Origin: Pyropia yezoensis
Taxonomy: Eukaryota > Rhodophyta > Bangiophyceae > Bangiales > Bangiaceae
Length of the DNA stretch: 64,000 nt
Direction: 5' to 3'
Assembly (NCBI GenBank): GCA_009829735.1
Contig: CM020618.1
Span: forward strand, 17,407,346 to 17,471,345
The notes under the pieces are model-generated. The model ran no database searches, was not told where the DNA came from, and worked only from the letters and a program-made list of their open reading frames with translations. Shown here one piece after another: positions 7,590 to 64,000 of this stretch. Positions within the stretch are counted from its first letter, which is position 1; each line of letters begins with the position of its first letter. Made by a program: the position numbers and the translations under genes.

Positions 7590-7711
7590 CATCCCAGTGC
7601 CGGGCACGGGCCACGGCCGCCAACCATCCCCACACGGCGGGCGTGTCCTGGCACCTGGTGCCCCCTGGTCGCCATCCCAGGTCGGCGCCAAGTCAGGGCC
7701 AGGGATGCTAC
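7590..7711 (-). repeat. 3' LTR, 122 bp
   Basis: Aligns without gaps to 15737-15858, with 8 differences in 122 positions (about 93% identical). On the minus strand it begins GTAGCATCCC directly after a purine tract (AGGGAGGGAG at about 7716-7726) and ends CACTGGGATG. The ends CATCCC/GGGATG on the plus strand form a short inverted repeat. Confidence 0.8.
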
Positions 7712-7892
7712 ATAGCTCCCTCCCTAGTCCGGCACGTCCTCGGGCCGTACCAGGTGCCACCGTGCACAGCCTCGAGCACGCCCACACCGGGGCCGAGGTC
7801 GAGCATCTTCACCCCGAGCGTGATCACCTTCCCCAGCCCTGCCCCCCCCCTCCTTCACCTTGGCTTTCCCGTTCCCCTCGGTTCCGGACGGT

Positions 7893-8476
7893 ATGTCCAG
7901 CTCCGAGATCCTGGTCGGGCCCGTAGCTCCGGTGGCGAGTGTCGCGGAGGGGAAATCGGGTGGCCGTGCCCCTCTCCTGCCTACGGTTCCTCGGGTGTCG
8001 GTGCGGACGCCGGTCGTCACGGGGGAGGAGACGGATCAAGTGCCCCCGGCTGCAGCGTCGCGCCCGGTCGAGACCCCCCCGGCGGGTCTCCCGGAGATGC
8101 ATCTGGGTCAGGATCCCCTGGCGGCCCGGCATGCGACCAGTACGACTTGGGCATGATCGAGGACCAGCTGGGCCGACTTCCGGTGCAGGTCGAGGGCGTC
8201 GGGTCTTCCTTGGTGCTGGGAACGTATGCCAGCGTCTTGAAAGACGTAGTCGACCAGGTGTTTGCTTGCGCGGACAGCGGCCAGATGTCGGACGGTCCGG
8301 TGGTTGGTGAGCTCCTTGCAACCTTGACCCGGCATGGCTTGGCCCAGCGCTGGTCAGGGACCTTCACGAGTTTCCAGGAGCGTCGGCGGGTGTACTTGGA
8401 GGAGCGGGAGCGTCCGGCGATCGCTAGTGCTGTTCCGTTGGCGGAGTACGTCGAGGCGTCTCGGCCGCCTCACTAA
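7893..8476 (+). CDS. Two overlapping unknown ORFs antisense to the retrotransposon 3' end
   Basis: An 87-codon frame starts at ATG 7893 (MSSSEILVGPVAP) and stops at 8154-8156. A second frame starts at ATG 8153, overlapping that stop as ATGA, and runs 107 codons to 8476 (MIEDQLGRLPVQVEG to EYVEASRPPH). The second product looks like a real globular protein: mixed composition, and a helical stretch including YASVLKDVVDQVF and LLATLTRHGLAQRW. Both lie between the chromodomain and the 3' LTR, on the opposite strand to gag-pol. I do not recognise either. They could equally be one gene broken by a one-base shift near 8100. Confidence 0.35.
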
Positions 8477-8708
8477 GTCATCCAGTCATCCTCTGGGTCC
8501 CGTTGTGCTGCTGACGCGGCGCTGGAGGACGCTCTTGCGGCGCAGCGTGCGCGCCGGGAGTAACACTTGAGGGCAGGGAGGGTAAGAGTCCAGGGAGAAG
8601 GGAGGAGGGAAGAGGCGGAGAGAAGGGTTGCTCGAGCGGGTGCTTTCTGTCTTCTAGTAGTTCCATGCTTGTATTTCTTGTCTTCCGTGATACACCCGTT
8701 CCCTTTTC

Positions 8709-10657
8709 TCAATCTTCTTGTTCCGCGTCCGTTGCGGCCGAGCTCGACTCGTCCTGCAAACCCTGATCAGCTCCTTCCTTCTCGTTATCCTCCGAGTCCG
8801 ACTCCAGGATCTTACCAGCTCTGGCTACTGGAGTGCCTTCAATCCCGTTCCGCCGTGTGTAGGCGCAGACATCAGCAATGGGCAACCAGTTGGAGGGTTC
8901 CCAGGTATCATCAGCCGGGTTGAAACCGAACCAGCGTAGTCGCAGGTACAGGCGTCCCTCCCTCCAGGCATGGTCTACAAACTTGACGTAGACGTACTCT
9001 CGGCCTTCTTCTTGAGATAACCAGGTTACTGCGGCACGCTTACGCCGGGTCAGGTCCCGCTTGCTTGGCGGTGGAGCTCGAGTGACGTGGTCGCTGCTCA
9101 CCCGGTACGGGGAGACATCCACGTCTAGAAGGAACGCCCAGCCGTCCGTACTCAGGATTTCATAGGGCCCGTCCGTCTTGGAGTCCAGCTTTCCCCGGGT
9201 CTTGCTATGATTGTCCACAAAGACCCAGTCGCCACCACCCAGTTCCTTTTTCTTTTCCCGAACATTCTTGTCGTAGTCCCGCTTGTATCGCTCCTGGGTC
9301 TTTGCGATTGACTCCTTGACTCGTGGGAGAAGGAGCTTCAGTTGTTCCAGGAATTCGTCTTTTGCCTTGGGGCCCGACTTCAGGGCAGGCTGGAGACCGT
9401 CCGGTATTCTTTCCAGGAAGAAGTTGGTCAGCCGCCTTGGGGTGACAAAGTCTAGTGGAGCTACCCCTGTTGTCCGGTGAACACGAGAGTTTTAGGATAG
9501 AGTGAGGACGGCAAGGAGCTCGTCCCAGTCTTCTTGATGCTCTTCAACGTAGTGCGGAAGCATGTCCACGAGGGTCCGGTTGAATCGTTCCACCTAGCCG
9601 TTCGTTTGTGGGTGATATGTCGTAGTAAACAAGTTCTTGATACCTATCAGGTCACAGACTCCTTGGAAGAACAGGGATGCAAACTGGGGACCGTTGTCGG
9701 TCAAGACGGAGTCCGAAGGGCCATAGGCAGTTATCCAGTACTCGCAGAAGGCCGACGTAACGTCCAGGGCCGTGATGGTCCTTAGCGAGATTGCTCGGGT
9801 GAACTTGGAGAACCGGTCACAGATAATGAGCAGGTAAATGTTGCCACTGGATGTCTCAGGTAGGGGTCCCAGGATGTCCATACTCAAACTTGCAAAGGGC
9901 TCCGCCGCCGGGAACAGGCGAAGTGTAGCGTAATGGAACCCAGGTTCCCGGAACCACAAACCACAAACACACACACAGAGACCACAGTCCGGAGTCCAGG
10001 AAGGAACAGGTAAGAGCCCTTGCTGATCCACTCGCCCGCCACGATACGAGGCAAAGGTAAACAGGACAAAAGCCCGAGGGAGAAGGAACCCAAAGCACTG
10101 TTGATTTTTCAAGATGGCCCCGGGGAGAACCCTGGAACACCCCTCAAGAACCTCCCCCCCTGGCCCCTCCAGGGGCCCAGAGCGAGGCCCCCAGAGGGCG
10201 CCCCCAGCGGGCCAAGTGCCAGCAAGGCACCGGCCGCTCACCGGGCCAACACACGAAAAGCAAGCGAAATCCCCCCACACACAAATGTCAATCCCCAAAA
10301 AAAAACCCAGTGGGAAAAAGGGGAAAGACACGAAATCACGCAAGGAAAACAAATGCGAAAAATCAAACAAATAACCCGAAGGTCAGTATGCCCCAACCCG
10401 GCAAGTCCTCCGCTCCGGGGGACCAATCAGGGCACCGGGCGTGTCGCCACTGCCCCGGGCCACCGATGCAAGGATCCCAAGCCAGCGCGTGGTTCCACGT
10501 AACGCTGCCAGCCGGGTCCCAAGTCAGCCTCCCGGGTCCCAACGGTACCTGAGGGCCACAACGCCACACGTAGCTTAGAAGTCTTCTTCCTCTGGGTCAA
10601 CCGGTTCCTTGCACAAAAGACACAAGCCTCTAGATGCTTGCGGACGTCACTTGCCAT
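8709..10657 (-). pseudogene. Integrase and chromodomain of the Ty3/gypsy element
   Basis: After the inserted TIR element the zinc-binding region resumes (SDVRKHLEACVFCARNRL, giving the CxxC), continues to about 10574, and is broken again by the solo-LTR-like insertion at 9934-10568. The catalytic core follows: SMDILGPLPE (first Asp), LTDNGPQFASLFF (second Asp), then a TAG at 9594-9596 directly before VERFNRTL (the Glu). A TAA lies at 9492-9494. The frame then runs on through a basic linker (TQERYKRDYDKNVREKKKEL) to a chromodomain at about 8800-8990, with YVYVKFVDHA, LRLRWFGF, DDTWEP. Chromodomains steer such integrases to methylated histone tails. Confidence 0.85.
9934..10568. mobile_element. 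Solo-LTR-like insertion inside integrase
   Basis: A 635-bp segment beginning TGGAACCC and ending ACGCCACA (TG...CA on both strands). It interrupts the integrase between its zinc-binding region and catalytic core. It is flanked by cgtaa (9929-9933) and cgtag (10569-10573), a five-base target duplication with one change. It has no coding potential of its own. These are the marks of a lone LTR left after recombination of a different retrotransposon. Confidence 0.65.
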
Positions 10658-11269
10658 CGTCGGCGACCGGAACCACATGCGACTCAATCACACACACTGC
10701 ACGGCGTTGTATTTCACAATTTTCCACTGCAATGTACTGCAACATCACGCGAAGACCGTCCCCTGATGAAAAAAGAGCACAACTGCAATACATGTCATGA
10801 CTTGTGTATCGCCGCATCTTCTTGTATTTCCCTGCAACACAGATCCCTCATGAACCTCACCGCTCCTCACACACTGGCCAATGCGACTCCGACAGTCGCA
10901 TCGGACAAGCTGGTCGAGTCGCGGACGACGGAACATTGACCTTTCGTTCTCCACGCGTACGCTGCCGGCCGCCAGTGTCGTCGTCGTTTAAAATACATCG
11001 CTGAAGAGGCCACCAATTCTTCCGATCGCGCGGTCCGGACGTTTCACGACATCTGATTGACCACACAGCCTCGCCCGAGCCTCCATTCACGGAGGCTACT
11101 TTTTGACATCCCCAACTGAACATGCTCAGTTGCGCATCTACCGACGCCAGTGAGCTGATTCTTTTTCGATGCCTGAGTTGCAAGCATCTGCCTGTATTTA
11201 CTGCATTTCAAACAGGCGTTGAAATACAGGAAAACATGCACTGAAATATAGTGGTTCCGGTCGCCGACG
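10658..11269. mobile_element. 612-bp TIR element (MITE-like) inside the integrase zinc finger
   Basis: Ends in perfect 19-bp terminal inverted repeats, CGTCGGCGACCGGAACCAC at 10658-10676 and its complement at 11251-11269. It is flanked on both sides by the dinucleotide AT. It sits exactly where the retrotransposon frame breaks between RRQYSWET and MASDVRKHLEAC. The interior is GC-poor compared with the host element and rich in TGCA words, with no transposase. A diverged copy of one end is at 60377. Confidence 0.8.
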
Positions 11270-11274
11270 ATGGT

Positions 11275-14200
11275 TTCCCAAGAGTATTGCCGCCGCATCG
11301 AGGCATATATCCGGTTGATGCCAGGGTATCCGGCCTGGGGAGACGAGTGTTCCAGGCGGAGGATATCAGCTCGTAGGTTTCGGGGTACGTAGACTTCAGT
11401 TGCCCCGTCAAAGGGTGATACCCGTATTAAGAGTCCATCCGTGGACTCTGAGAAGCGACTATTCCGGTTCAGGTCCATCACGTGGCGGAGCTCTAAGCAG
11501 TGAGGATCCGTGAGCTGTGCCTCCAGCATCCAGTGAATAGTTACCGGTTGATGAGCTTCAGGTGTCTCATGCAAGGGAGCATGCCAGCCACGTCCGACAT
11601 TCGGGAGGAGGAAACAAGGTCTCTCCTCCGGGATAGGGCCCGTATCGGCTGCAGGAGTCTCCAACCGGGACATGGTGTCGGCACAGTGGTGCTTCCTCCC
11701 TGCTCTGGGGCAAACCTTATACTTTAATGCAGAGAGGCGTAGATGCCACCGGGCGACCCTTTCTTGGCTGCTGTCCATGCATAGCAGCCACCTTAGGCTG
11801 GCGTGGTCCGTCTGGATGAGAAACTCTTGTCCTTCTAGGTAGGGGCGTAACAGGAAACAAGCCCAGACGACCGCCAAGCACTCGCGTTCCGTCGTGTATA
11901 GTTCTTCTCTGCTGGAGTCAAGACGCGACTGTAGTAGCCAACCGGGAGGAAGTGCCTATCAGGTTGTTGCTGCAGTAGAGAGGACCCCACCTGGACGCCA
12001 CAGGCGTCAGTCTCTAGAACAAACTGGCCCTCCCGCTTGGGTAGCGCCAGTACTGGAGTCGTGGTCAGGTGCTTCTTGAGCTCCTCGAAGGCAGCTGTCT
12101 GCTTCTCGTCGAGCACCGGGAGTTGTGCGGGGAGCTTCTTGCTGGTGAGCTTGGTCAATGGCCTGGCAATCAGGGCATAGTCCCGTACAAACCGGCGGTA
12201 GACGTTGCACATACCCAGAAAGCTCTTGAGTTCCGTCTGGGTCTGAGGCTGCCGGGCTTGCCGAAGGGCCTTGATATTCTTCTCGTTGACCCGAAGCTCC
12301 TTCGGACTCAGCACGTGCCCCAGGTACTCCACTTCCGTCTCGAACAGGTGGCACTTGTCTGCCTGCAGGGTAACTCCAGCACTGGACAGGAGAGCCAGAA
12401 CCTCTCGGAGGTGCTCTAGGTGTTCCGCCGGGGTCTTGGAGAAGACGATAATGTCGTCCAAGTGAACCAGACATGTTCTCCATCTTAGTCCTGACAGGAT
12501 GATGTCAATGGCTCTCTGGAAGGTAGCCGGAGCATTGGTGAGGCCAAAAGGAAGACGCGTGCACCGGAATAACCCCATATGGCACGTGAAGGGGGTTTAG
12601 TCCTTGTTCTTGTCGGCCAGAGGGATCTGCCAGTACCCGGCATTACAACCCAGCGTTGAGAAGAGGGTGGCATCACCGAGAAAGTCGATGCAATCATCCA
12701 TCCGTGGTATTGGGTGTGCATCCTTGACCGTCATCTCGTTCAGGCGCCTGCAGTCGACGCAGAAACGCATCACCGCCAGGATTCAGGACGACTACCACCA
12801 GAAAGGCCCACTCGCCATCGGAGGGCTCGATAACATCCATCTTCAGCATCTTTTTAACCTGCCTCTCAATCTCATCCCGGCGATGTGGTCCAGCCCGATA
12901 CGGTTGCAGGTGCACTGGCTTGGCATCCGGCTTGAGTTGAATCCGGTGTAGGGTGGCGTCCATCTTGCCCAGCGCTCCAGGCCACAGGTGCCGATATTCC
13001 TGGAGAAGCTTCTCCAGTGCCCCTTTCAGGTCGGGAGGGACATTTTCTTGGTTGACTTTCGGCCTCCCGGGTGGTGCTTGATCGGGCTTCGGGGTACCGC
13101 TGCCAGCCTGCTCTTGTTCCGGAGGTACGTCTAGGGCCGTTAGGTTGGATGCCAATTCTTGTTGCAGGTTCAGGAGGTCCTCCTTGCTCATGGCACGGGC
13201 AGACCTCCGGTAAGGCTCTGCTGTTCGAACTCGAGTGCCCTTGGTGAGAGTTGTCGGCTTCCGGCTCACGTTGACGATTAGCACCGAGAATGGGGTGTGC
13301 CTCTCCACCTTCTTGTGATGTCCGTGGGCCAAGTATAACCAGTGTTTCGCCAGAAACTCCTTACGTCCGTAGATCAGGCATTGACCCGTAGTCCGGGTGG
13401 TCACTTGAACCTTGGTCTCCGAACGAGGAGGTAGGAGCACCGGTTTGAAGAGAGTCAAGGTAGAGGGTGGGATGCGTTCCTTCTTGTTCTTGACAACACG
13501 AACCTTGGCGTCCAAATGCTCCAGCACCGGTGACACAAACCCATGGTGAAACTGCACCTTTACTTCTCCGGGCAGAATACTCTTGACATGCTGCTTCTGG
13601 AAGTCCCAGCCTAGAATGAGGGGGACTGATAGAGTATTGACTACTAGAAAGGGAAGAAGCATTGGTTCGTTGTTGACATAGATGGCGACAGGAAGGCGGC
13701 CAAGCGGTCGTAGGGTTTGACCCGAAGCGTCTACAATCCGGGTCTTGGTAGGAGCTCTCCAGGCATGTCGACGCCAGCCCGGAGGTAGCAGGTTTTCAGA
13801 GATGACGCTTGGTCCGGCTCCCGTGTCAACCACCGGAGTAGCAGCTTGGGGGAGGCTATCCCCCACACGCATACGAGCATTGATCTTGAGGTTTTCCTTA
13901 CGCAGAACGAGCAAGGTCCCCTTGAACAAACAGGGTGTCCGGGCATCTACCAGTTGAGCAGGTATCTGCCGTCCTTTCTCCCGGTACGCAGGGGGAGAAC
14001 GGGTAGAAGTACCCTGCCGTCGGAGATTCGGGAAGACACTTGGGGAGAGCGCCTGCCCTACTCGTTTCCCGGGTCCGAGGATTCCTTGGAGGTCTCGGTC
14101 TCCAGGTCAAAGTCCGTAGGAGCTTCCTTTGCCAGAGCCTCCGTGATGCTCTGCGAGGTTGCCACCCGGATTGCGTGTACCTGTGCCTTGTCCATCTTGG

Positions 14201-14337
14201 AGGGTGCTCGCCGGTCAGCCCAGTTGCCTGCCTCCGCAAACACCAGTCCTTGACGCTTGAGCTTCTCCTGGAGGTCCTTGGGAATGGTCGGGCACTGGTA
14301 GGACATGTGGTCCTCCTTCTGGCACAGCTAACAAGAC
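11275..14337 (-). pseudogene. Zinc knuckle, protease, reverse transcriptase and RNase H remnants
   Basis: From the right: a CCHC knuckle (LCQKEDHMSYQCP; a TAG at 14328-14330 falls inside its first CxxC), an aspartic protease (VDTGAGPSVIS and LILGWDF), then the reverse transcriptase. RT blocks visible are DCRRLNEMTVKDAHPIPR, FSTLGCNAGYWQIPLAD, LPFGLTNAPATFQRAI and the active-site HLDD (LVHLDDIIVFSK). The catalytic Asp expected in the FSTLD-type block is Gly here. A TAA lies at 12597-12599 and a frameshift near 12790. RNase H (LETDACGVQVGSSLLQQQ, IQTDHASLRWLL) leads into the integrase HHCC region (LEHSSPQAGYPGINRIYASM), which ends at the inserted TIR element. Confidence 0.85.
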
Positions 14338-14546
14338 CGGAACTGCTGGTTCTTGACCTGCTTGGAGGCGACCAAGGAAGGTTGCTCCTTAGAGACACAG
14401 CCACCCCACTTGTCTTCTGACCCCACGGGTGAGGTCTCGCCAACTGCCAGTACCGGTGCAGGGCTACCACCTCCCTTTTACGTGTCGGGTCCGGGACGAA
14501 CTCGCGACAACGGCTTGGAAGTTGATATCATGGGAGCTTGGAGGGC

Positions 14547-15735
14547 CTAGGCTTGCTGGTACTTGCCCTGGGTGTAGGCCATCAGCTGCTGGAAGGTATG
14601 TTCTTGGTGTTCCTGGTTGTAGTTCTCAGCGTCTACTTGAAGGTATTCAGGAAGCCCTTCCGAGAAGATCATTTTGAGCCTGTCCTCAGGGTAAACGTTG
14701 CCACAAGCCTCGCTCATCTCCCGGACACGGCGGGCGAAGGCCTCCGGAGTCTCTTGTCGTCCCATGATAGCCCGGTTCAACTTGCCCACTGCCTTGCGCA
14801 GGGAGTCCGCGTCAGCGTAGTTGAACAGGAGCCAGTTGACCGCTTCCGGGTAGCTCCCAACGGTATGCCCGACAATGTGTCCGGCTGAGTCTGGTAGAAC
14901 CTGTGCGACCCGCTGTTCCGCTTCGTCGGTCATGAAGTAAACCAGGAGGTAGAGTGCCTTGCCCTCGGACACATCGTTGTCGTTGCATGCTTTGAAAAAT
15001 CGGCGCAGGAAGGCAAAGATAAGCGCCGGCCTCTTCCCGGAAAACGTAGGATGTCCCCCGAAACTCGGCTGCATGCGCCGGTTCAGGGATGCCATCTTCT
15101 TGGCCATCTTCCGGGTGTAACCTTGGTCTTGGTTCTCCAGCCGGTAGTTACCCCAATGCGTGACCTTGTTCAGGGCGGCATCCCCCACTTGGTGGGCAGG
15201 GAAGTAAAACTCGACTAGCCTGCGCCGGGTGGGACCAGGGGATGCGTCCCAGTCGTATCCCTCCTCAGAGCTGGAGGAACTGGTCTCGCTGGTGCTAGAA
15301 CGACGACGACCACGCCGCCGCCTCCGGCTGCTCCGGTTACCGGTCTTGGAGCTCCGCGCCCCATAGTACGCCAGGGGAGGAAGAGCTTGGCCGGTCCCAG
15401 GAGTCGAGGTCTCAGGGGGACCCGTAGAACCAGTCATGGCGGTGCCTCTGGCACTGCTAGCGCCCACAAGAAGCGGTGTATACACCCAGCTGCCATGTGT
15501 AGGTCCAGGAGTGAACACACTAGGGGCTATCCCTGGAAGGTCAGGAGTAAAACCGACAGGAGGGAGACGTCTGCTGCGAGCGGACTCAAACGCCGTTGAC
15601 CCCGGGGTGGCTCCCACAGGAGGGACAGCCGGAGGAACGGGAGCTGGAGGTACTTGGCCGCCTGTAGACTCCAGTCCGCTACCGGGTGTCACGCCCAGGT
15701 CTGCTTCGCCCGTAGGAAGAACGCCGTGTTGGGCA
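14547..15735 (-). pseudogene. Gag of the Ty3/gypsy element
   Basis: A single open frame of about 395 codons. The N-terminal third is Pro/Gly/Ser-rich. A basic Arg-Ser block (about 15290-15340) follows, then a capsid-like helical region, with HWGNYRLENQDQGYTRKMAK, LRRFFKACND, LYLLVYFMTDEAEQRVAQ and FARRVREMSEACGNVYPEDR. The frame is open back into the 5' LTR, so its start is uncertain; an in-frame ATG lies at 15437. Sequence between gag and the zinc knuckle is out of frame. Confidence 0.75.
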
Positions 15736-15738
15736 CCA
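15721..15738 (-). other. Candidate primer-binding site
   Basis: Directly after the 5' LTR the minus strand reads TGGTGCCCAACACGGCG. It starts with the TGG complementary to a tRNA CCA tail, as expected for priming. Which tRNA would match cannot be told from the window. Confidence 0.4.
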
Positions 15739-15858
15739 TCCCAGTGCCGGGCACGGGCCACGGCCGCCAACCATCACCACACGGCGGGCGTGTTCTGGAA
15801 CCTGGTGCCCTCTGGTCACCATCCCGGGTCGACGCCAAGTCGGGGCCAGGGATGCTAC
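15737..15858 (-). repeat. 5' LTR, 122 bp
   Basis: Partner of 7590-7711, same length, 8 substitutions. Its outer edge abuts a Harbinger transposase fragment at 15859 with no gap. Confidence 0.8.
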
Positions 15859-16241
15859 GATTCGCCCTCGAGACGTGGCTCCTGAAGCCCTACCCCGAGG
15901 AACAGCTGACGACACCCAAGAAGCGGATGTACAATCTTAGTGTCTGCTCACCGCGGGCTGTGGTCGAAAACGCTTTTGGTGTGCTGAATGGCCGATGGCG
16001 CTTGCTACACTCGGGGGTGTCATGCGAGACGGAGCTTGCATCTTACGTGGTCGGCGCGTGCGTGCGTCTGCACAATTTCTTGGAAGACCAAGGAGACGAG
16101 TGGAACGATGCCATCGACCCGTACCACGACGGTGCTCACGCTGCGGCAGGGGAAAAGGAGGACGACGATGCATACCTGGAGGCCGCGCTAATGCGAGACG
16201 ACTTAGCGAATGCTCTTTGGGAGGAGTATGGGGATGAGTAG
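15859..16241 (+). pseudogene. PIF/Harbinger transposase, C-terminal fragment
   Basis: C-terminal part of a HARBI1-like DDE nuclease. FALETWLLKPYPEEQLT matches the W-x-KPY block, KRMYNLSVCSPRAVVENAFG contains the third catalytic glutamate (VEnaFG), followed by RWRLLHSG and CVRLHNFLEDQGDEWND, the LHNfl helix. An acidic tail ends at the stop at 16241. Everything N-terminal of FALETW is missing; the retrotransposon LTR lies exactly at the break, and the left flank of the retrotransposon does not supply the missing part. Confidence 0.8.
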
Positions 16242-32274: not shown

Positions 32275-33702
32275 AGTGTGTCGGCGGCCCCCCCCTTCCG
32301 CATCCGTCGAGGGCGGGGCCTCCCCGTAGCGGCAGCGTCAGAGCGGCGGCAAGCCGCCCCTGCCCACCTCCTCTGCCTGCCGTGGCCGTGCGCCAAGTGC
32401 ACACTATACCTAGCGGGGGGGGGGTGCGCCAGCCGCCAGTGGGGGTGTGGGGGGGGGTCCGTCCCTCCCGGGGTCGGCGGCGCCTGGAGCGGGGCGCCCC
32501 GCAGCCGTCGGTTCGGGGGGCGCCCGCGCCCCCCGTCGAACCGTCGTCGCGTCACGGTGCCGGGCACACAAGGGGTGTGGATACGGCGGCGGCTGCGAAG
32601 CGGCCAAAGGCGACAGCAGATTGCATCAACGGCCAGATTTTCGTCGTCATAGGAGACGCCTGTGAGAGGGGGGGGGGGGGTCAGGGTCAGGGTCAGGTGG
32701 GTGGCGGGGTCTGCGGCTGGTGGCGGGCTGCTCGCGGGGGGGCAGGGTGCGAGCGCTGTGCCGATTGGTCGAGGCTGGTGTGCATATTCGCACCCATTTC
32801 GACAATGGACCGCCGGGGTTGGGCGCGCGCGCGCACCGTCGCCTGCGGCTGGTGGCGGGCTGCTCGCGGGGGGGCAGGGTGCGAGCGCTGTGCCGATTGG
32901 TCGAGGCTGGTGTGCATACTCGCACCCATTTCGACAATGGACCGCCGGGGTCGGGCGCGCGCGCGCACCGTCGCCCGCGGGCCCCAGCTGGGTGTGGAAT
33001 ATCTCACCAGGCTGCCAAACAAACGCCAGGCGACACCCCGCCTCGCAGCACAGGAAATTGGTCTCGCTGGTTCCCTCGAGTGTACTTGACTGTGCATGAT
33101 CGACAAGTTGACAACAACATTTCTGTTCCGCCTTGAGGGACAGATTGGCAGGTAATTGAACACTTGAGATCCGTGAGTCACTGCTGGCCCGTGACGTCAT
33201 GCACAACGACCTCGTGACGTGGCCGGCACTCGACGTCCAGCTACTGTAATACGGGAACGTCCTACACACTGTACGTACTGTAGCCCTACGATGTGTGGCC
33301 CGCGTTCCCGCTCCCGAGAGCGCCAGGCCCACTGCCTGTGAGTCTGGTTGCAAACCCCTCCCGATGAGCAGTGGACACACGGCGGTACGACCTCTGTTTC
33401 TGTCAGTGCAAAGCCGGTCCACCACAACGGCAAACGGGCATTCCACCATGGACACGTACCTAGATATCCCCACGCGAGCGGGGCCGTGGGACGCACACGG
33501 CCCCCCGTTTTTTCCTCACGGGTGGTGCGGCAGGTTGGGGCCAGGCGGGGTATGTAGCCCTCATGAGAGTGGGCGGCTGGGCCTGGGGGGTGGATCATCC
33601 ACAGCCCACCCCCCCCCCCCCCCCCCCCTCCTCGCGGCTTGTGGTGTGCACCGCCGCTGCGTCCGCCGCGCACGGCTGCTGCGCCACTGGCGTCCGCGCG
33701 CC
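31326..33702. other. Divergent intergenic region with extreme G/C runs
   Basis: Long C or G homopolymers (31 C at 32244-32274; about 22 G near 31969-31991; shorter runs at 31370, 31548-31570, 31798-31810) and a two-copy 132-bp repeat (32711-32974). 33080-33300 is GC-poorer and may hold the start region of the acyltransferase gene. Open frames on both strands through 32.1-33.4 kb are mutually overlapping and have no recognisable domain. Confidence 0.5.
32711..32974. repeat. Two-copy tandem repeat, 132 bp
   Basis: Units 32711-32842 and 32843-32974 start CTGCGGCTGGTGGCGGGCTG and differ at only a few positions (for example catattcgc/catactcgc and ggggttgg/ggggtcgg). Each unit ends in a CGCGCGCGC tract. 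The near identity implies a recent duplication or ongoing homogenisation. Confidence 0.95.
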
Positions 33703-55469: not shown

Positions 55470-56541
55470 TTGCTGTTCTCCCAATTTTGGCCGATCCGGA
55501 CAAGAACAACACAGCATGAACAACTGTGTGAGCCAATCGCGTGCTGGCATGTGAGAGCGAGCCAATCGCGTGCTCTAAGGGCCCGATCGCCCGGAGCAGA
55601 TGATTGGCTGCAGCCACAGTGGGCCTCTTACCAATCGCTGATTGGTCGAAACACTGTTGTTCTCTCGGCTGAGATCGCCGAAGATTCCCCCCACATCGGC
55701 TCGTTCCTCTCCGGAACAGTTGTCCAGCTTGTCTTGGTGTCTGTTCCACGCAGGTTCTCCCCTCCATGTGCTCGGAGTCCCGGGAAAGTCGCAGATCTTA
55801 CTGTTTGCACAACAATGGAGGCTGATTCGGAGCTCTCATTGGTCAGAGAGGCATCCTGTGAGGCATGTCGTCGGTCAGTGGACTGTTGTTCTTGTTCTTG
55901 TCCGGATCGGCCAAAATTGGGAGAACTGCAATATGAAGGCACACTCGTTGGAAGCCAGTCCATCGTTCTCCCACTTACGCTGCGGATATGAGAAGAATGA
56001 GAAAGAGTCTCTGGAAACCCCCGTGCGAGAGTGAAGAGAGCTCGAAAGAAACGCACGCCATTTACATAGACGGGTGAGTGCATGGTATTGCAGTACACCA
56101 AATTTTTTCTCATGGCGACAATAATGGCAACAGACCCACATCAGGCCAATCGCATGCCTCAGATGGCGCACCACTGGCCAATGAGTGCTCCGCGTTAGTG
56201 TGGAAACAGTGCGATCTGAGACTTTCTCGGGATTTCTGCCCACATCGAAGATGAAACAGGCATCCCAGGAACCAGCAATGACCTCATCCAGTGCTCTTGA
56301 CAGGATCCGGCCGAGATAGAGTGAAGTCCGCCGAGATCGTGAGAGAAAACAACAGCTATCTGACCAACCAGCGTTCGGTGCCAGATCCGCCGCGACTGCA
56401 GCCAATCATCGCCTGATCAAAAGGCAAGCCCCACAGCACGCCATCGATCCGCTGCGAGCTCCTGGCACGCGGTTGGCTCATGGCCTTGTTGTCACGCTGT
56501 TGCTCACTTGTCTCCATGAGGCAAAATTAGGGGAACAGCAA
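55470..56541. mobile_element. Tc1/mariner-type TIR elements, nested or truncated ends
   Basis: Three related ends. Left end TTGCTGTTCTCCCAATTTTG at 55470 after TA; an inverted copy ending at 55931 before TA, matching over about 40 bases with one mismatch and a 6-base repeat difference; and a further inverted end at 56522-56541 before TA, matching 18 of 20. So a 462-bp element (55470-55931) lies in, or shares its left end with, a 1072-bp one (55470-56541). The interior carries many CCAAT/ATTGG words and no intact transposase. Confidence 0.7.
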
Positions 56542-56557
56542 TATACGTATGTATGTA

Positions 56558-58249
56558 CAGTCAGTGAGCAAATTTATCCGTACGGTAAGACTCGAGATTC
56601 GTGCGGATCTTACTGCTACTATCCAATCATCTATTCTACGCCATGGGCTGGCCGGTACTTGGTGCTGGCACCCCTCACGTCGGTAACGTTCTGCACCCGT
56701 CGAGGCATCGACTCCACGAGCGCCTTGAAAAAGACGTGAGGACTCCATTGTCCACCCGCGCCGCCCACAGCACAATACAAGGCGCTTGGCCTCGTTCTGA
56801 TCCGACAGATAGGGTGTGTTATCGGCCACCCGGGACGCAAGCCCCATGGCCTTGACGGCCCACCGGATCGTCTGGGTTGACACAAAACCCTTCTCGGAGC
56901 ACCCATGTGAGGACCCACCCAAAACCGGGGAGCCCTCAACGTACTCGTGGGGGTGTCAGCGGGCCCTGCGAGCCAATGGGGCGGCGGGGTACGGGGAAGA
57001 GGACGGTAGTCTCGACGGGGGTGGGTCTGGGGAAGAAGATGGGCGCGACGTCGGTGGGGATTGAGGGTACAAAAGGTAAATAGTGTCTTTGGTCTGTGTC
57101 TGTGGTTGCCCCTCTCGTCTCCCCCGGTGGCGCCGACACCCACGCACTATATACTCGCGTCGGGGCACCCGAGGTGCCCCAAAGCATGCGCGGGCGTGCG
57201 CACTAAAGGAGTGCAGCCCCAGTTTGCCCGAAACGAAGGGGGTCCCGTGGATGGCGCCCAGCGCGCCCCACCAGCCGGCTCCACACGCCGATCGGCCAGA
57301 AGGTCCGACTGGCTGTAAGGGCCAGCAAGGCCAAATTCAATCAATCCAAAAGCCGGCGAGCCAGTCATATCGCACTCAGCCGCCAGCGAGGATGTGCGGT
57401 GTCCTCAGTGTCGGTGAATCATGTGACTCGTCCTTGATACCAGCTTTCAAGCAGCGCAGAGAATAAAATTCAGGCAGCACAGACGGGGATGTCCGCCCGT
57501 GGTTGGTCGACGATGTCACTCGCTCCTCGTTGTCGAGTTTCGACGTCCATGACAGGGTTCCGACAGTGCGTTGACGGCGGCTTTCGTGCGGTCTGCCGAC
57601 GTCCGCAAAATGTCAGGGATACAGCGTGGTGTCGCCCAGGGTAGTGGGGAATTGATGTGTCTTGGGGGGAGTTATCGGGGCCGGACATGTAAGGAGAGGT
57701 CCCAATCCATATCCCCTGGGTTCCGGGTGGCGATTTAAGGGGCAAATCCTTACAACCCACCCCCCTGAGTGCGCATCTGGTAGACTTTCTTCGTCTAAGA
57801 ACCGATGGAGGTAAAGCCGTTATGATCCAACTGTCGGCGCAGGGAGCTCAGAAAGGGCCCTGTCATGGCATTCAGCCGGCCCCGCATTTCCGCCTTAACA
57901 GCGCTTTCCTTCGTCCGCACCACTCAAGCCGTGCAAGTGATGTTGCTTTTCGTCAGCCCGAGCGCCGTACCAATGGCTCCCAGTGACTATCCCTGACGGA
58001 GCAGCGTCGCGATCGTGTCTCGCTGGCCGGAGGACAGGGGACGACGTGAGCGTATCCCCATGGTTTTTGGTAGGCGCCCCACGCTCCAGGGTAGTTCGCT
58101 ATCGGAGGGCGAATACGCGCGCTGCTGGTGCGTGTGGAGGCGAAGTCGAGAAATGTGGCGCGCACTGTTGCAAGGAGGCTGGTGGAACGACTTGATGCGG
58201 TGTGGAAAAAATGTTGCAAAATCGTACGGATCATTTTGCTCACTGACTG
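56558..58249 (-). mobile_element. Tc1/mariner transposon with decayed transposase
   Basis: Flanked by TA (56556-56557 and 58250-58251). TIRs start CAGTCAGTGAGCAAA and continue to ATCCGTACG on both ends (25 of 27 match). The minus strand holds transposase traces: a helix-turn-helix part at about 57900-58060 (RSRRPLSSGQRDTIATLLRQ, a stop, SLGAIGTALGLTKSNI, another stop) and the C-terminal part at 56640-56790 (WSPHVFFKALVESMPRRVQN and GASTKY). The middle is replaced by an inserted LTR-like repeat (56905-57363). Stops and frameshifts make it dead. Confidence 0.8.
56905..57363 (+). repeat. LTR-like repeat, copy 1 (shorter)
   Basis: Begins TGTGAGGACC and ends GAGCCA. Inverted relative to 59051-59622 and mostly well conserved with it. 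It lacks about 110 bases present in the other copy; the gap lies between two GCATGCTTTG-like direct repeats, suggesting a slippage or recombination deletion. It sits inside the Tc1/mariner element. Confidence 0.7.
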
Positions 58250-59050: not shown

Positions 59051-59622
59051 CTCGCCGGCTTTTGGATTGACTGAATTCGGCCAGCTGGCTGGCGACTGGC
59101 TGGCCGGCCAAGGGATTGATTGAGTTTGGCCCTGCTGGCCCTTACAGCCGGTCGGACCTCCCGGCCGACCGGCGTTTGGAGCCGGCTGGTGGGGCGTGCT
59201 GGGCGCCATCCACGAGATCCCCATGGCTTCGGGCGAACTGGGGCTGAACTCCTTCAGTGCGCACGCCCGCCCATGCTTTGTTCTGAGAGCCGTTTTTTGG
59301 CCGTTCTGTGCCTACCGGCGGCGCGATGGGGAAACGCATGCTTTGGGGCACCTCGGGTCCCCCGACGCGAGTATAGAGTATGTGGGTGTCGGCGCCGCCG
59401 GTGGAGACCGGGGGGGCAACCACAGACAGACGAAAGACTCCGTTTACCCTTTGTACACTCGATCCCCACCGACGTCGCGACCGTCTTCCTCCCCAGACCC
59501 ACCCCCGTCGAGACTACCGTCCTCTTCCCCGTACCCTGCCGCCCCATTGGTTGGCAGGGCCCGCTGACACCCCCACGAGTACGTTTTGGGCTCCCCGGGT
59601 GTCAATGGGTCCTCACAGGGTG
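59051..59622 (-). repeat. LTR-like repeat, copy 2 (longer, inverted)
   Basis: Inverted partner of 56905-57363. On the minus strand it runs TGTGAGGACC to GCGAGCA, so both copies have TG...CA-type ends. No five-base target duplication is visible at either copy. Candidate solo LTRs of one retrotransposon family. Confidence 0.65.
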
Positions 59623-61461
59623 TACGGGGAGAGCTCTAGGCGGCCTCAGGGCACGGCAGCTGGGGTAAAGTAACTGTTCTACATGGCGTGGGGTGGGCGA
59701 CGGCGTCGATGGTTGCGGCGGTACTTGCGCCGCCGGCGCTGATTTTTTTGTTGTAGGGGGGGCAGGCCTGCCCCGGACGAGCTCAGGGTGGCTGCGAGGC
59801 GGACGCGGAGGCTTTCCTGGGCAAGCGGGAGCTATTTTTTTTTTTTTTTTTTTGGCTTGGCTGAGCACTTGGCTTGGTACTGGGGTTCAGGTGTGATGTG
59901 AGGTAAAGCGGGAGCAGGGCGTTGCTGGAGCTGTTTTTTGGGTGGTCTCGGGAGAGACACAGTCTGCTTTACGGAAAAAAAAGCAGCGAGGGCCTTAGTG
60001 CTGCCCACTTCTCCTCTAAGACGAGGCATCACCACCCCCATGGCACAAATGCTAGGGGCGCGGTCCCCATGGCCCCCACTGGTCGCGCACGGCGCTTACG
60101 GACAAATATCCCTCTGGGCGCGGCTTCCTGTTCGGCCGCCCTCTGTGCACGGAAGGTGCCCCGCCAAAGTCCCGGCATCGGGGACCGCCGCGGCGGGCGT
60201 GGGGCAGGCGGATTTTTGTCTCCCCAAGGCGTCCAGTCCAGGACAGGGGTCCAGGAGGGGACGGGGGAGGAGAGGCTCCTTCATCAAAAGGCGGGGAGGG
60301 CCCTGCCAGAGATGCCTGAACAGGCAAGGGGCACATAAGCACCTGGCTTCTCCGTGGACCAATCAAACGAGCCCATCGTCGGTGACCGGAACTACGCGCG
60401 ATGCGTTGCATCTCCAATTTTTGCCTCTGCATCTGGTTGCAATCGTTGCTATCTCCTGCAGCACGAAGTTGTGTACTATGTACTGCTCACCAGATTCCAG
60501 TGCTGCAATGCATGCCTTCCATTGAGCTGCATTGTCGTTGTCTGCATGTCAGTGCAATGCAAAATTCACAGGTTGTCTCGTCGCCACGCATCTCAACGAC
60601 TTGCGGATGACTAGAGATGGACAGGCTGCGGCCTCCGACTCTGTTCAAGCGATCTGTCCCACAACGAGCATTGAGCGGCGCCATCGTAGAATTCACACGC
60701 CCAACCCGTCCGATAATGTGCTCCGGCGCTGCCAGATCTCGTCGCCGGGGCGATTCGCGCTTGAGCGACGTCCCCATACCTCGTCGAAGGCTCAATAGGC
60801 AAGGGCTACCTCGAGGTACCCGGTCAAGGCCACGCAGTTCCCCACGCCCACGCTCACCACTGAGCTCATTCACGACAGAGGGCCTCTCCGACGGCTACGA
60901 TTCTCTCCACTTGCCATAAGAACACCGGATCCTGCCACAAGATCGCACTCGACCCACCCTGAGAATCATCGAACCCCCCTCAGAGCTCTCATACTATCTG
61001 GTCTGGACGATTGTGCGACCAAGTCAGAGCATAATCGACTTGGTACCGCCAACACAAAACAACAGTCCACTCGGTGACTGGACAAAGGTTTGTGCTTTCC
61101 TTTCACCGTCCCGCCTCCAGGTACCATGAGCCGTTCCCACCGCACATTCCTGAAATCGCTCCCCGTCTCTGTTCAATCACGGCCTTAACAGGGCATCAAC
61201 ACTGCCTTTGACCGCAAGGTACGCTTTCCGTCGCGCTGGGGCAGGCACGATACCAAATCACAGCTGAGCAACGCTCTAGACGGAGAGAAAAAGACGGGAA
61301 GAAGAGATGCGTATAATGCAGTCTGACAAGAGCTACATCACCCATGTTCATAGCTGCAAGCGCCAGTACTTCCTGTTTCCGCGAAGTGCCCTGTTCGACG
61401 GCCGTGGTGCACGTGCATGACCAAATCATGTCTGTGGCAAAAACCACTTGCACACACGACA
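59623..61461. other. GC-poorer spacer with a diverged TIR end at 60377
   Basis: A run of about 17 T at 59835-59851 and short A/T runs at 59930-59985. At 60377 the sequence CGTCGGTGACCGGAACTAC, preceded by AT, matches 17 of 19 bases of the TIR of the 10658-11269 element, followed by similarly TGCA-rich DNA; its other end is not found. No gene. Confidence 0.5.
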
Positions 61462-63832
61462 CCCAAGTTGGGGCGGTGTACAAGGTCTGCCTCCCGTGTC
61501 GGGGAAACCGGAAGAAGTGCAAGTCGCACACACTCTGTCCCTGTTGTGGGGCAAACCCCCCACTGACAAACAAGAGGATGGTGTGTGGTCCAACAGTTTC
61601 TTGGTCGGGACGGGGAAGCAGGGCCAAGCCCCGCTGTCCCTCCCCTTATCCCCCCAGGGTCCACTCAGAATCTCGCCACTCAGAATCTCCCACCCCAGCA
61701 CCTGCCCACCGGGCCACACGAAAATTCAAGACGATAAATGCAGAAAACCCTCAAATCCAAGTTGGATGTACTACGAAGCTAACTATCCCAAACTTAGGGA
61801 ATATGGACCCAAATGCAGGGGGAGGAACGGGTCAGGCTAGTGGCCTGCCGCCCCTTGCATGGCACGTGTTGCCCCCCTACCTGGGGGTCAATACTGCCAC
61901 ACTCCCCTCTCCTCAGTTCCGACCGACCCGGTCGGCCCTGTGAGGGGGTGCGTAAACGCACGTCTCGGCGTTGGGGGCGCGACTTGCTGTCCCCCCTTGA
62001 GTACGTAACGCGGATGTGGAGGCGGTCACGTTGACCGCCCCTCTCCTCAAGCTTGCCCGCTCGACAGCTTGCTCTCCCCGGTTCTCACTTCACCATCCCA
62101 CCACCTCCCCTTCACCTTCCACTGGGCCACCCCACGCTGGGGAGGCCACCCGTCTACCCACGATCCGAGTCCCCCTCAACTCGAGGCGGGTCTCGTGCCG
62201 CTGTAGCCAGGGCGTCTCTCCCCAACTTGGGGAGAGCCATGGCGACCCCGAGGGTGGAGACGGACTCTCTCGACGAACGTATGGAGGACACCTCCTACGG
62301 TGCAGCGCCCGCCGGGACTTCCGGCGGGGGCTCCGCGATCGCTCCGGGGGATGGGACTCCCGCGTCACCCGGCTTTCGGTTGACGGCAGGATCTCCCCCG
62401 GAGGCGGGACAAGTTGTCCCGCGTGAGGCCTTGGGGCGGTGGTTTTACCCCGCTTGGCCTCTATATGAGAAGGGGTTGTCTGTTCGTCGTTGTGGCCGAC
62501 TTGGCGCAGCGATGGGTCGGGTATGGGACCGCCTACGGGAGAAGTATCCCCGTAGGGTCGGGTTCCCTGCCGGCTTCAGCACGGACCAGTTTGCCTTCCT
62601 GGACGACGAGAGGGTCGAAGTCGTACAGCGGGCCAAGGCCATGGTGGACCGCGGGGGAACTATCCCGCGTCCCGGCGACTTGCCGACCTTTACTTGGGAC
62701 GCGGTGGAAACTCGCCCCCCGTACCTTCATGAGGCCGATCCGCACACTCATCACTTTGATGTGCGGATGGAGAAGGACTTCCGGCGAGGTCCCTACTTGG
62801 TGACCTCGGCTCAACTTGAGTTTCCTCAGCAGTCTGCTGCCAGTAAGGAGCAGTACTATCCGAAGAAGCCCGAGTGGTGGCCTCAAGTAGAGGTCCCCTA
62901 CGGGTTCCCGGCGTTGCTGCCACGGTTGCTTGACCACTTCGGCTCCGTCATGTTGACGGCTGGCCCTGATCACCTGGTGTGGGCCATGTTGGCCACCCAG
63001 TGGCTCCTCGAGGTCATGTCGACCTGGGTGTCTTGTGTTCAGCGGCGGGGGATGCTCTGGCATCTCCCCCTCCGGCTTATCCAAGGTTTGGAAAAGCTCA
63101 CCCCTCAGCTAGTTGCTGAGGGGTGCTCATCAGGACAACTCACTCTACTTGAGGAGATGCTCCGCCTCCACAAGTTTATCGAGTCGGAGAGCATTGAGCA
63201 CAAGTTGCGCCGCTCCGCCCGCGGGCCCAAGGACGATGGCGCACTTCGCCTGTTCGTGTGGGTCGCTCGTGAACTTCACGACGGCCGTGTGGTCCTACGA
63301 GAGGAGTTGGGCATCGGGGACTACCCGTATGCCCCGGGGGTGGAACGCCACACTGCGCCACCCCCGGACAAGCCCAAAGTTATGGCCGTGCCCTCATATG
63401 ATGACCATATGACTCAACCCACTGCGGGGGCCCCAAGTCGGGGTCGCAGTTACACCCGGGTCCCGCCACCCCGGCGTGCCCCTCCGCTTCCTCCTGTCCC
63501 CTACCAACCGCACGGGGACATCCCGATTAGCGTGGCCGTTGAGTCGTCCACCCCGGTGTCCCCAAACTTGGGGGCCACCCTCCTGACGGTATACCCCAAG
63601 TTGGTGTTACCGCCCACGCCTCTAACCTCAGAGATGATGATCACCACGCTGGTGCGCACCATTTCCTGGTTGGCCGCGTCGACCGCAACCCTTCAAAGTT
63701 CCGAGACTCCTCAACTTGAAGAGCGCGTTCGTACTGCAGTGGCGACCGCGAGTTGCGAGTCGGTGGCGGAGTTTATGACGGCCGAGTTGGCTCGCATTGG
63801 GGCTATTATGCCCCAGCCAGCCCCACTTGGGC
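61462..63832. repeat. Dense array of perfect short hairpins, loop consensus N-A-(C/G)-T-T
   Basis: At least 20 perfect hairpins with stems of 3-11 bp. Examples (stem, loop): 62021-62039 GGCGGTC, acgtt; 62216-62236 CTCTCCCC, aactt; 62308-62328 CCCGCCGG, gactt; 62404-62422 GCGGGAC, aagtt; 62673-62685 CGGC, gactt; 62810-62820 CTC, aactt; 63099-63125 CACCCCTCAGC, tagtt; 63143-63153 CTC, tactt; 63268-63280 CGTG, aactt; 63820-63832 GCCC, cactt. Longer-loop ones: 62532-62556 (CCTACGGG), 63334-63367 (CCGGGGGTGG), 63495-63520 (TGTCCCC). Stems differ in sequence yet always pair. Confidence 0.85.
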
Positions 63833-64000
63833 GTGGCAAACGTCGCGTGAGCCGGGCATACTCGCCTCCTTGCCATCGTCGCCGACACTCGCGGCGCTCA
63901 CCCTCCGTGTCGGAAGACGATTTGTCTTACTCCGTCTCGGAGTCCTCGACTCCGTCAGAGTCGGAGTCGGTCAGGCGTCTGCGTCGACAACTTGCGCGCA
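62239..64000 (+). CDS. Unrecognised long ORF overlapping the hairpin array, open at right edge
   Basis: An uninterrupted frame of 587 codons from ATG 62239, preceded by an in-frame stop at 62032-62034, and still open at 64000. The start lies three bases after a perfect hairpin. N-terminal 60 residues: Gly/Ser/Thr-rich. Middle (about 62430-63340): mixed, well-folded-looking, with RWFYPAWPLYEKGLSVRRCG, MGRVWDRLREKYPRRVGFPA, FSTDQFAFLDDERVEVVQRA, HHFDVRMEKDFRRGPYLVTS, LVWAMLATQWLLEVMSTWVS, FVWVARELHDGRVVLREELG. Then a Pro-rich linker, a helical segment (MITTLVRTISWLAASTATLQ) and a basic-then-Ser/Glu tail (CHRRRHSRRSPSVSEDDLSY, ESESVRRLRRQLAR). Its position in a transposon nest suggests a gag-like or other element protein, but no domain is recognised. 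Confidence 0.6.
   Translation, partial: MATPRVETDSLDERMEDTSYGAAPAGTSGGGSAIAPGDGTPASPGFRLTAGSPPEAGQVVPREALGRWFYPAWPLYEKGLSVRRCGRLGAAMGRVWDRLREKYPRRVGFPAGFSTDQFAFLDDERVEVVQRAKAMVDRGGTIPRPGDLPTFTWDAVETRPPYLHEADPHTHHFDVRMEKDFRRGPYLVTSAQLEFPQQSAASKEQYYPKKPEWWPQVEVPYGFPALLPRLLDHFGSVMLTAGPDHLVWAMLATQWLLEVMSTWVSCVQRRGMLWHLPLRLIQGLEKLTPQLVAEGCSSGQLTLLEEMLRLHKFIESESIEHKLRRSARGPKDDGALRLFVWVARELHDGRVVLREELGIGDYPYAPGVERHTAPPPDKPKVMAVPSYDDHMTQPTAGAPSRGRSYTRVPPPRRAPPLPPVPYQPHGDIPISVAVESSTPVSPNLGATLLTVYPKLVLPPTPLTSEMMITTLVRTISWLAASTATLQSSETPQLEERVRTAVATASCESVAEFMTAELARIGAIMPQPAPLGRGKRRVSRAYSPPCHRRRHSRRSPSVSEDDLSYSVSESSTPSESESVRRLRRQLAR

Follow-up and report, generated by a model that had tools for sequence, protein, structure and literature searches.

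Dispersed packaging signals have been proposed for single-stranded RNA viruses and for the pregenomic RNA of hepatitis B virus; they comprise many stem-loops distributed genome-wide and through coding sequence, with stems of free sequence and a common loop motif (PMC6281560), and belonging to this class requires that the capsid or Gag protein binds them and that assembly depends on it. The LTR retrotransposons Ty1 and Ty3 also have a Gag that must select its own RNA, and Gag binds the genomic RNA in elements of this type (PMC4974528). Their packaging and dimerisation signals are placed mainly near the 5' end of the RNA, no element-wide loop code being described in the accessible parts of two sources (PMC4974528, PMC11381356), and their packaging sequences and Gag sites are given there as not precisely defined (PMC4974528). 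In plant Retand elements, antisense ORFs lie between pol and the 3' LTR, and that paper (PMC11963269) does not contain the words hairpin or stem-loop.

The window analysed here, a 64,000-nt stretch of the Pyropia yezoensis genome (G000:C1:17407346-17471345), was found to carry at its 3' end part of an LTR retrotransposon, designated L032, filled with hairpins that follow one loop rule. With 61 sites of a common loop motif in 9378 nt, and selection on that motif supported for the L032 family, the closest parallel to the probable working of this array is the set of dispersed packaging signals described for RNA viruses (PMC6281560), for which it is a candidate. It differs from these in that its loop rule is tens of fold above chance, occurs in an LTR retrotransposon and changes between related families. 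The sequence-only reading of this DNA had known of no described element family of this kind, and indeed no element-wide, loop-coded hairpin array was found for any retrotransposon in searches of open-licence literature, which is not proof of absence.

The retrotransposon L032 and its antisense gene

The L032 element spans 9378 nt (9.38 kb, 61433-70810, minus strand), as deduced by self-BLAST, with the 3' end of the window reached at 64000. Its LTR pair (61433-61901 and 70341-70810, 469-470 bp) is 97.7% identical, the second LTR being located beyond the window end. A neighbouring copy at 72418-80672 is 93.5% identical by self-BLAST, and a further copy, copy2, is situated on contig C1 near 35.94 Mb; as the LTRs of copy2 are 99.8% identical, the family was active recently. 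The larger features are as follows.

61433-64000, minus strand: 3' part of LTR retrotransposon L032 (LTR pair and second copy by self-BLAST; RT, RNase H and integrase on the minus strand)
61433-61901, minus strand: 3' LTR in the element sense (97.7% identity to 70341-70810)
62239-64000 in the window, plus strand: antisense gene, 622 codons from the ATG to 64104 (open frame 62035-64104; codon positions of shared variants, homologue in L054)

On the minus strand, RT (PF00078) is encoded in the upstream frame and RNase H (PF17917), the integrase zinc finger (PF17921) and the integrase core (PF00665) in the downstream frame. The LTR pair and this domain order on one strand identify L032 as a Ty3/gypsy LTR retrotransposon, which is present in its red-algal host in high copy number. 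Matches to a protease, to a Gag zinc knuckle (E 0.0038) and to a chromodomain at the C-terminal end of the integrase (E 0.042; 14.2 bits with a Pfam cut-off of 25.1) were weak. Chromodomain Ty3/gypsy elements (chromoviruses) have the same domain order, and the chromodomain matches of the related families L054 (E 0.0003) and L055 (E 0.011) are likewise below the Pfam cut-off. To our knowledge, hairpin arrays are no feature of chromoviruses.

The genome searched comprised 107.5 Mb in 11 contigs, of which C1, C2 and C3 account for 43.6, 34.3 and 29.4 Mb. At least 130 copies were scored among 4475 candidates with the RNase H-integrase region, at 97–100% identity, and at least 68 among 3417 candidates with the antisense ORF, both numbers being lower bounds. 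Among the 120 matches listed for pol, the relatives with names were from Chondrus crispus and Agarophyton, and the listed matches include relatives with 46–65% identity. No relative was found in viral contigs, and four distant matches in prokaryote genomes were left unused. An Rfam covariance-model scan of 61400-64000 gave no match at E <= 1.

The antisense frame is located between integrase and 3' LTR, opposite to gag-pol, an arrangement that recalls the antisense ORFs of Retand. For the analysis of variants, the neighbour copy and 30 further loci, each represented by its longest BLAST piece, were aligned over about 4 kb to give a set of 31 copies, and a variant was termed shared when present in at least three copies and rare when present in one or two. 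Within the antisense frame, shared variants were distributed 93/20/16 over codon positions 3/1/2 and 94 of 129 were silent, against 28% expected; rare variants were distributed 157/124/104, with 140 of 385 silent. The antisense frame is a real gene, held by purifying selection during the spread of the family and freed from it after insertion.

A homologue of its product is encoded in L054 (31% identity over 218 aa, E 3e-20; L054:5978-7501, minus strand) and another in L037 (26%, E 9e-11; a 533-codon antisense frame at L037:215-1813, plus strand), while none was found in L055. Pfam contained no matching family, either for the part encoded in the window (E <= 1) or for the whole protein (E <= 0.05); if TRP28, the domain of Retand (PMC11963269), is among the Pfam families, the protein has no match to it. 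The protein represents a conserved family of red-algal Ty3/gypsy elements that lacks a Pfam match. Databases returned a single near-identical protein, and structure prediction from the single sequence was poor (mean pLDDT 41). From the translation, the C-terminal part in the window copy is rich in Arg and Ser.

Hairpins with a common pentaloop

In the segment 61462-63832, 19 perfect hairpins with a stem of at least 3 bp and a NASTT or AASTN loop were located. All are listed on the minus strand, with the loop given in the plus-strand reading.

61462-61472, minus strand: hairpin, loop AAGTT, 3 bp, in the LTR
61517-61529, minus strand: hairpin, loop AAGTC, 4 bp, in the LTR
61755-61767, minus strand: hairpin, loop AAGTT, 4 bp, in the LTR
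62174-62186, minus strand: hairpin, loop AACTC, 4 bp
62216-62236, minus strand: hairpin, loop AACTT, 8 bp
62308-62328, minus strand: hairpin, loop GACTT, 8 bp
62404-62422, minus strand: hairpin, loop AAGTT, 7 bp
62495-62505, minus strand: hairpin, loop GACTT, 3 bp
62673-62685, minus strand: hairpin, loop GACTT, 4 bp
62810-62820, minus strand: hairpin, loop AACTT, 3 bp
62881-62893, minus strand: hairpin, loop AAGTA, 4 bp
63099-63125, minus strand: hairpin, loop TAGTT, 11 bp
63143-63153, minus strand: hairpin, loop TACTT, 3 bp
63238-63250, minus strand: hairpin, loop CACTT, 4 bp
63267-63281, minus strand: hairpin, loop AACTT, 5 bp
63431-63443, minus strand: hairpin, loop AAGTC, 4 bp
63747-63757, minus strand: hairpin, loop GAGTT, 3 bp
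63781-63791, minus strand: hairpin, loop GAGTT, 3 bp
63820-63832, minus strand: hairpin, loop CACTT, 4 bp

The hairpin at 62216-62236, which is among the longer ones, stops 2 nt upstream of the antisense ATG.

The excess of such hairpins reported by the sequence-only reading was confirmed, 200 dinucleotide shuffles of the segment giving a mean of 0.4 and a maximum of 3; at stems of at least 4 and 5 bp the counts were 12 against 0.12 and 5 against 0.06. Their density had been put at one per 100 bases, and the array is indeed dense, though the figure is one per 125 in this segment (19 in 2371 nt) and about one per 154 over the element. Similarly, the enrichment of CAACTTG and CAAGTTG is strong (3 + 5 = 8 against 0.29 expected), the count of about nine being slightly too high. 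That each site has a stem sequence of its own while the loop rule stays the same is a direct observation. The 16 loops within the span of the frame fall 9/4/3 over the three codon phases, as had been noticed, and a peptide repeat is therefore ruled out as the cause. The hairpins had been taken for a feature of an open reading frame; that frame is the antisense gene, and the array fills the whole 9378-nt element, LTRs as well as internal region, with gaps of 28–696 nt between hairpins in the window copy.

Over the entire element, at least three perfect pairs were formed at 61 sites in L032, where about two are expected, at 62 in copy2 and at 41 in the decayed neighbour copy. Against 20 shuffles, AASTN loops numbered 50 versus 0.55 and NASTT loops 27 versus 1.30, with 16 AASTT loops belonging to both sets. 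In another copy, four reading frames were each shuffled 200 times with synonymous codons; the means were 1.45, 1.26, 0.83 and 1.0, with a highest single value of 5, where 13, 11, 10 and 21 hairpins were observed. Loop length 5 was the most raised (129 versus 46.5 at stems of at least 4 bp); other odd lengths were raised less and even lengths little.

The five-base loop given as NASTT stands, yet the rule reads better on the element sense strand, where the loops are 5'-AASTN/NASTT pentaloops with a C-G closing pair at 46 of 61 sites, AASTV exceeding BASTT by 34 to 11. AGT and ACT were the top-ranked central triads in both copies examined. Of all occurrences of each loop word, those found in hairpins were 34/79 for AASTV, 16/41 for AASTT, 11/48 for BASTT and 13/153 for BASTV. 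The word GASTC (G-AST-C), which can be closed to a triloop, was in a hairpin at none of 30 occurrences in each of two copies, and therefore the loops need to stay open. Pairing is raised across stem pairs 1–4 and fades beyond.

In lowest-energy folds of 61-nt windows the loop was formed at 37 of the 61 sites, many of which extend past a bulge into a lower stem. The mean predicted pairing was 0.66, as compared with 0.50 after shuffling of the flanks (p 0.007), and for the 24 sites with exactly three perfect pairs predicted formation was 0.56 versus 0.305; the flanks are thus predicted to help, an effect that was not found for hairpins with other loops. Some results count against reading at the RNA level. 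Predicted pairing did not differ between strands (0.674 sense, 0.684 antisense), and the strand bias of the loops relative to word counts is modest (Fisher p 0.023 in the window copy, 0.18 in copy2 and 1.0 in the neighbour copy). Stem mismatches displayed no preference for G-U over A-C, with ratios of 7:6 and 4:4 for L032, 8:6 for L054 and 11:19 for L055; the sum over the three (30:35) is unexpected for RNA.

Conservation of the hairpins among copies

In the alignment of 31 copies, 38 consensus-loop hairpin sites were defined, each of them present in at least one copy, such that variants breaking a hairpin were still counted. Shared variants occupied none of 228 inner-stem columns and 2 of 190 loop columns, as against 204 of 3445 outside (2/418 combined; Fisher p 2e-8), and 9 of 556 columns when full stems and loops were taken (p 3e-6). 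Rare variants were equally frequent inside hairpins (79/418) and outside (652/3445). Shared variants are depleted and rare ones occur at the outside rate; selection therefore acted while the lineage spread, followed by decay after insertion. Purifying selection on the inner stem pairs and loops of L032 during spread, released after insertion, is thus well supported. This agrees with the proposal of the sequence-only reading that selection acts on nucleic-acid structure, for which the codon-synonymous shuffles, far below the observed counts, also speak.

At 82 sites where a stem of at least 4 bp encloses some other loop, shared variants occurred at the background rate, 53/809 versus 151/2636 in the rest, and consensus loop words outside hairpins had 22/272. 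For the other half of the element, covered by 11 copies, some of them partial, shared variants were again fewer within hairpins (7/429 versus 195/4378, p 0.003), while singletons amounted to 54/429 and 461/4378. A paired stem change, of the kind that covarying stems within the family would produce, was seen once, in one copy; the copies differ by only a few percent, a divergence too low to reveal covariation.

Related families and the reading of the loops

Related families were listed by the protein query P0010, and one locus each was fetched for L054 and L055; the query P0006 returned only the family of L032. Identity to L032 in the aligned RT is 62% for L054, 60% for L055, 55% for L037 and 52% for L038, and in Gag 41% for L054 and 35% for L055. 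Neither L054 nor L055 displayed an excess of AASTT-type loops; both are nonetheless rich in hairpins, each with an array comparable in strength to that of L032. In the single copy of L054, 4-nt loops on stems of at least 6 bp numbered 29 versus 1.8, and a stem of at least 4 bp was present for 33 of the 336 loops centred on UA, as against 0–3% of those with another centre; this class is an N-UA-N tetraloop, with no strand bias (GA 10, TC 12). In the single copy of L055, 3-nt loops on such stems numbered 24 versus 2.7, and the class is an N-W-N triloop closed by C-G, with A or U at its centre (stem of at least 4 bp for C.A.G in 36/172 and for C.T.G in 16/134). In 100 codon-preserving pol shuffles the means were 3.9 for L054 (highest 11), where 29 were observed, and 4.6 for L055 (highest 10), where 24 were observed.

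Since the loops differ and the sites in pol are not homologous, no coincidence of hairpin positions beyond chance being detected across the three families, the arrays of L032, L054 and L055 look separately acquired or rewritten. In the RT tree the three families group together with a local support of 1.00 (FastTree) and an ultrafast bootstrap of 66 (IQ-TREE); their exclusive common descent is likely on these trees but not certain, as it is not secure in every one. Six other LTR loci (L037 to L041 and the element at 7600-15900) were without loop-specific excess at loop lengths 3–10. They represent about four families, because the RTs of L038 and the 7.6-15.9 kb element are 92% identical and those of L039 and L040 91%. 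As L037 has the antisense gene and no array, the arrays follow gag-pol kinship and not the antisense gene; the antisense protein as reader of the loops is disfavoured by this homologue and by the lack of a detected one in L055.

A single loop type on stems whose sequence is free, selected across coding sequence, non-coding sequence and LTRs, looks like many weak sites for one reader, which would be family-specific because related families use other loops. Gag seems a natural candidate, as it binds the genomic RNA (PMC4974528) and differs between families. We therefore propose tentatively, at a confidence slightly below even, that the hairpins are dispersed over the genomic RNA of L032 and that Gag of the same family reads their loop as a signal for packaging or self-recognition. 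In the sense genomic RNA they would serve as recognition sites, the nucleocapsid side of Gag reading the loop presented on a short helix whose sequence is free; a large number of weak sites would jointly let Gag select, condense and package its own RNA in preference to RNA from the host or from related families, and the loop would be a family badge co-evolving with Gag. A wider formulation, possible though held a little more cautiously, is that dozens of hairpins bear a per-family loop (AASUN pentaloop, N-UA-N tetraloop, N-W-N triloop) as an RNA identity badge, read by Gag or by the loops themselves, so that each of several related families in a common nucleus would package its own RNA alone. 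This self/non-self code would evolve by wholesale rewriting, loop length and sequence changing from family to family under a constant principle. Among the mechanisms offered by the sequence-only reading, packaging or protein-binding hairpins probably fit best. A mobile hairpin spread by targeted insertion is improbable, as the stems have no sequence in common, and DNA cruciforms with stems of 3–4 bp are implausible.

A rival possibility is base pairing among the loops themselves, inside one genomic RNA or from one to another; compaction or self-specific dimerisation would then need no protein that reads sequence. The AGU and ACU cores are complementary and both frequent (46 and 34 hairpins in copy2, stem of at least 3 bp), the UA core of L054 is self-complementary and the A and U centres of L055 can pair, and short palindromes are used in Ty3 and retroviral RNA dimers (PMC11381356). 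Loop sets nearly closed under reverse complement are also accounted for. However, the cores of L054 and L055, two bases or one in length, are very short for such contacts and the preference for A at the first loop position is not demanded by pairing, such that we regard loop-loop pairing as unlikely.

Near closure under reverse complement is likewise expected from a process at the level of DNA or of copying, in which snap-back template switching, or an event at near-symmetric cores, makes and repairs inverted repeats with no RNA reader. Cores of this kind occur in all three families, stem mismatches lack a G-U preference, and 12 of 14 L054 tetraloop hairpins that reach 8 bp stop there, as a process of fixed length might give. 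Arm correction does not explain the conservation of the loops (2/190 versus 204/3445), these copies show no conservation of hairpins with other loops, and the process would have to be restricted to particular families, since arrays are missing from other elements in this genome. A purely mutational origin is disfavoured by the conserved loops and by the contrast with hairpins of other loop types, and the probability of this explanation is accordingly low. As for the L054 stems themselves, 14 of 19 extend from 7 to 8 bp, in small numbers and with a UA centre in only 5 of the 12 that stop; the stop at exactly 8 bp suggests a module of fixed length.

A host RNA-binding protein or nuclease that reads the loops, with the element exploiting it or being marked by it, is quite improbable. 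Yeast Rnt1p is said to read short terminal loops, and AAGU tetraloops reportedly feature in papers on it, but a single reader leaves unexplained why three families have three different loops while others have no array, and the conservation implies that the element itself keeps the sites. Chance, base composition or codon usage, in favour of which GC-rich stretches of the window are richer in hairpins (about two-fold at 30–36 kb) though at all loop lengths alike, is of negligible probability, being ruled out by the dinucleotide and codon-synonymous shuffles and contradicted by the loop-length specificity and the conservation.

Returning to packaging by Gag, L032 offers a candidate signal tens of fold above chance, selected in loops and inner stems, with three natural loop variants in one genome. 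Three Gags and three loop classes in that genome make a direct test of cross-recognition possible, and the arrays may let the rewriting of a self-recognition code be followed from one element to its relatives.

A genome-wide hairpin habit was not seen, arrays being absent from the six other LTR loci and from the rest of the window, where positions 1–60000 contain three hairpin entries with a stem of at least 3 bp, all at 10–14 kb. The LTR-type element at 7600-15900, said by the sequence-only reading to lack the pattern, indeed has about as many such hairpins as its shuffled sequence (AASTN 2 versus 1.15, NASTT 1 versus 1.00). L037 has fewer long perfect hairpins than expected (6 versus about 23; summed over loops 3–10, stem of at least 6 bp), as if they were avoided. 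Other repeats in the window comprise a 132-bp unit in two tandem copies, 97% matching, at 32711-32980, an inverted repeat pair at 56900-57366 and 59094-59622 (about 88–89% identical), and a 426-bp segment at 56103-56528 that recurs at 71121-71546 (97.7%), just outside L032, and is possibly a solo LTR of another family.
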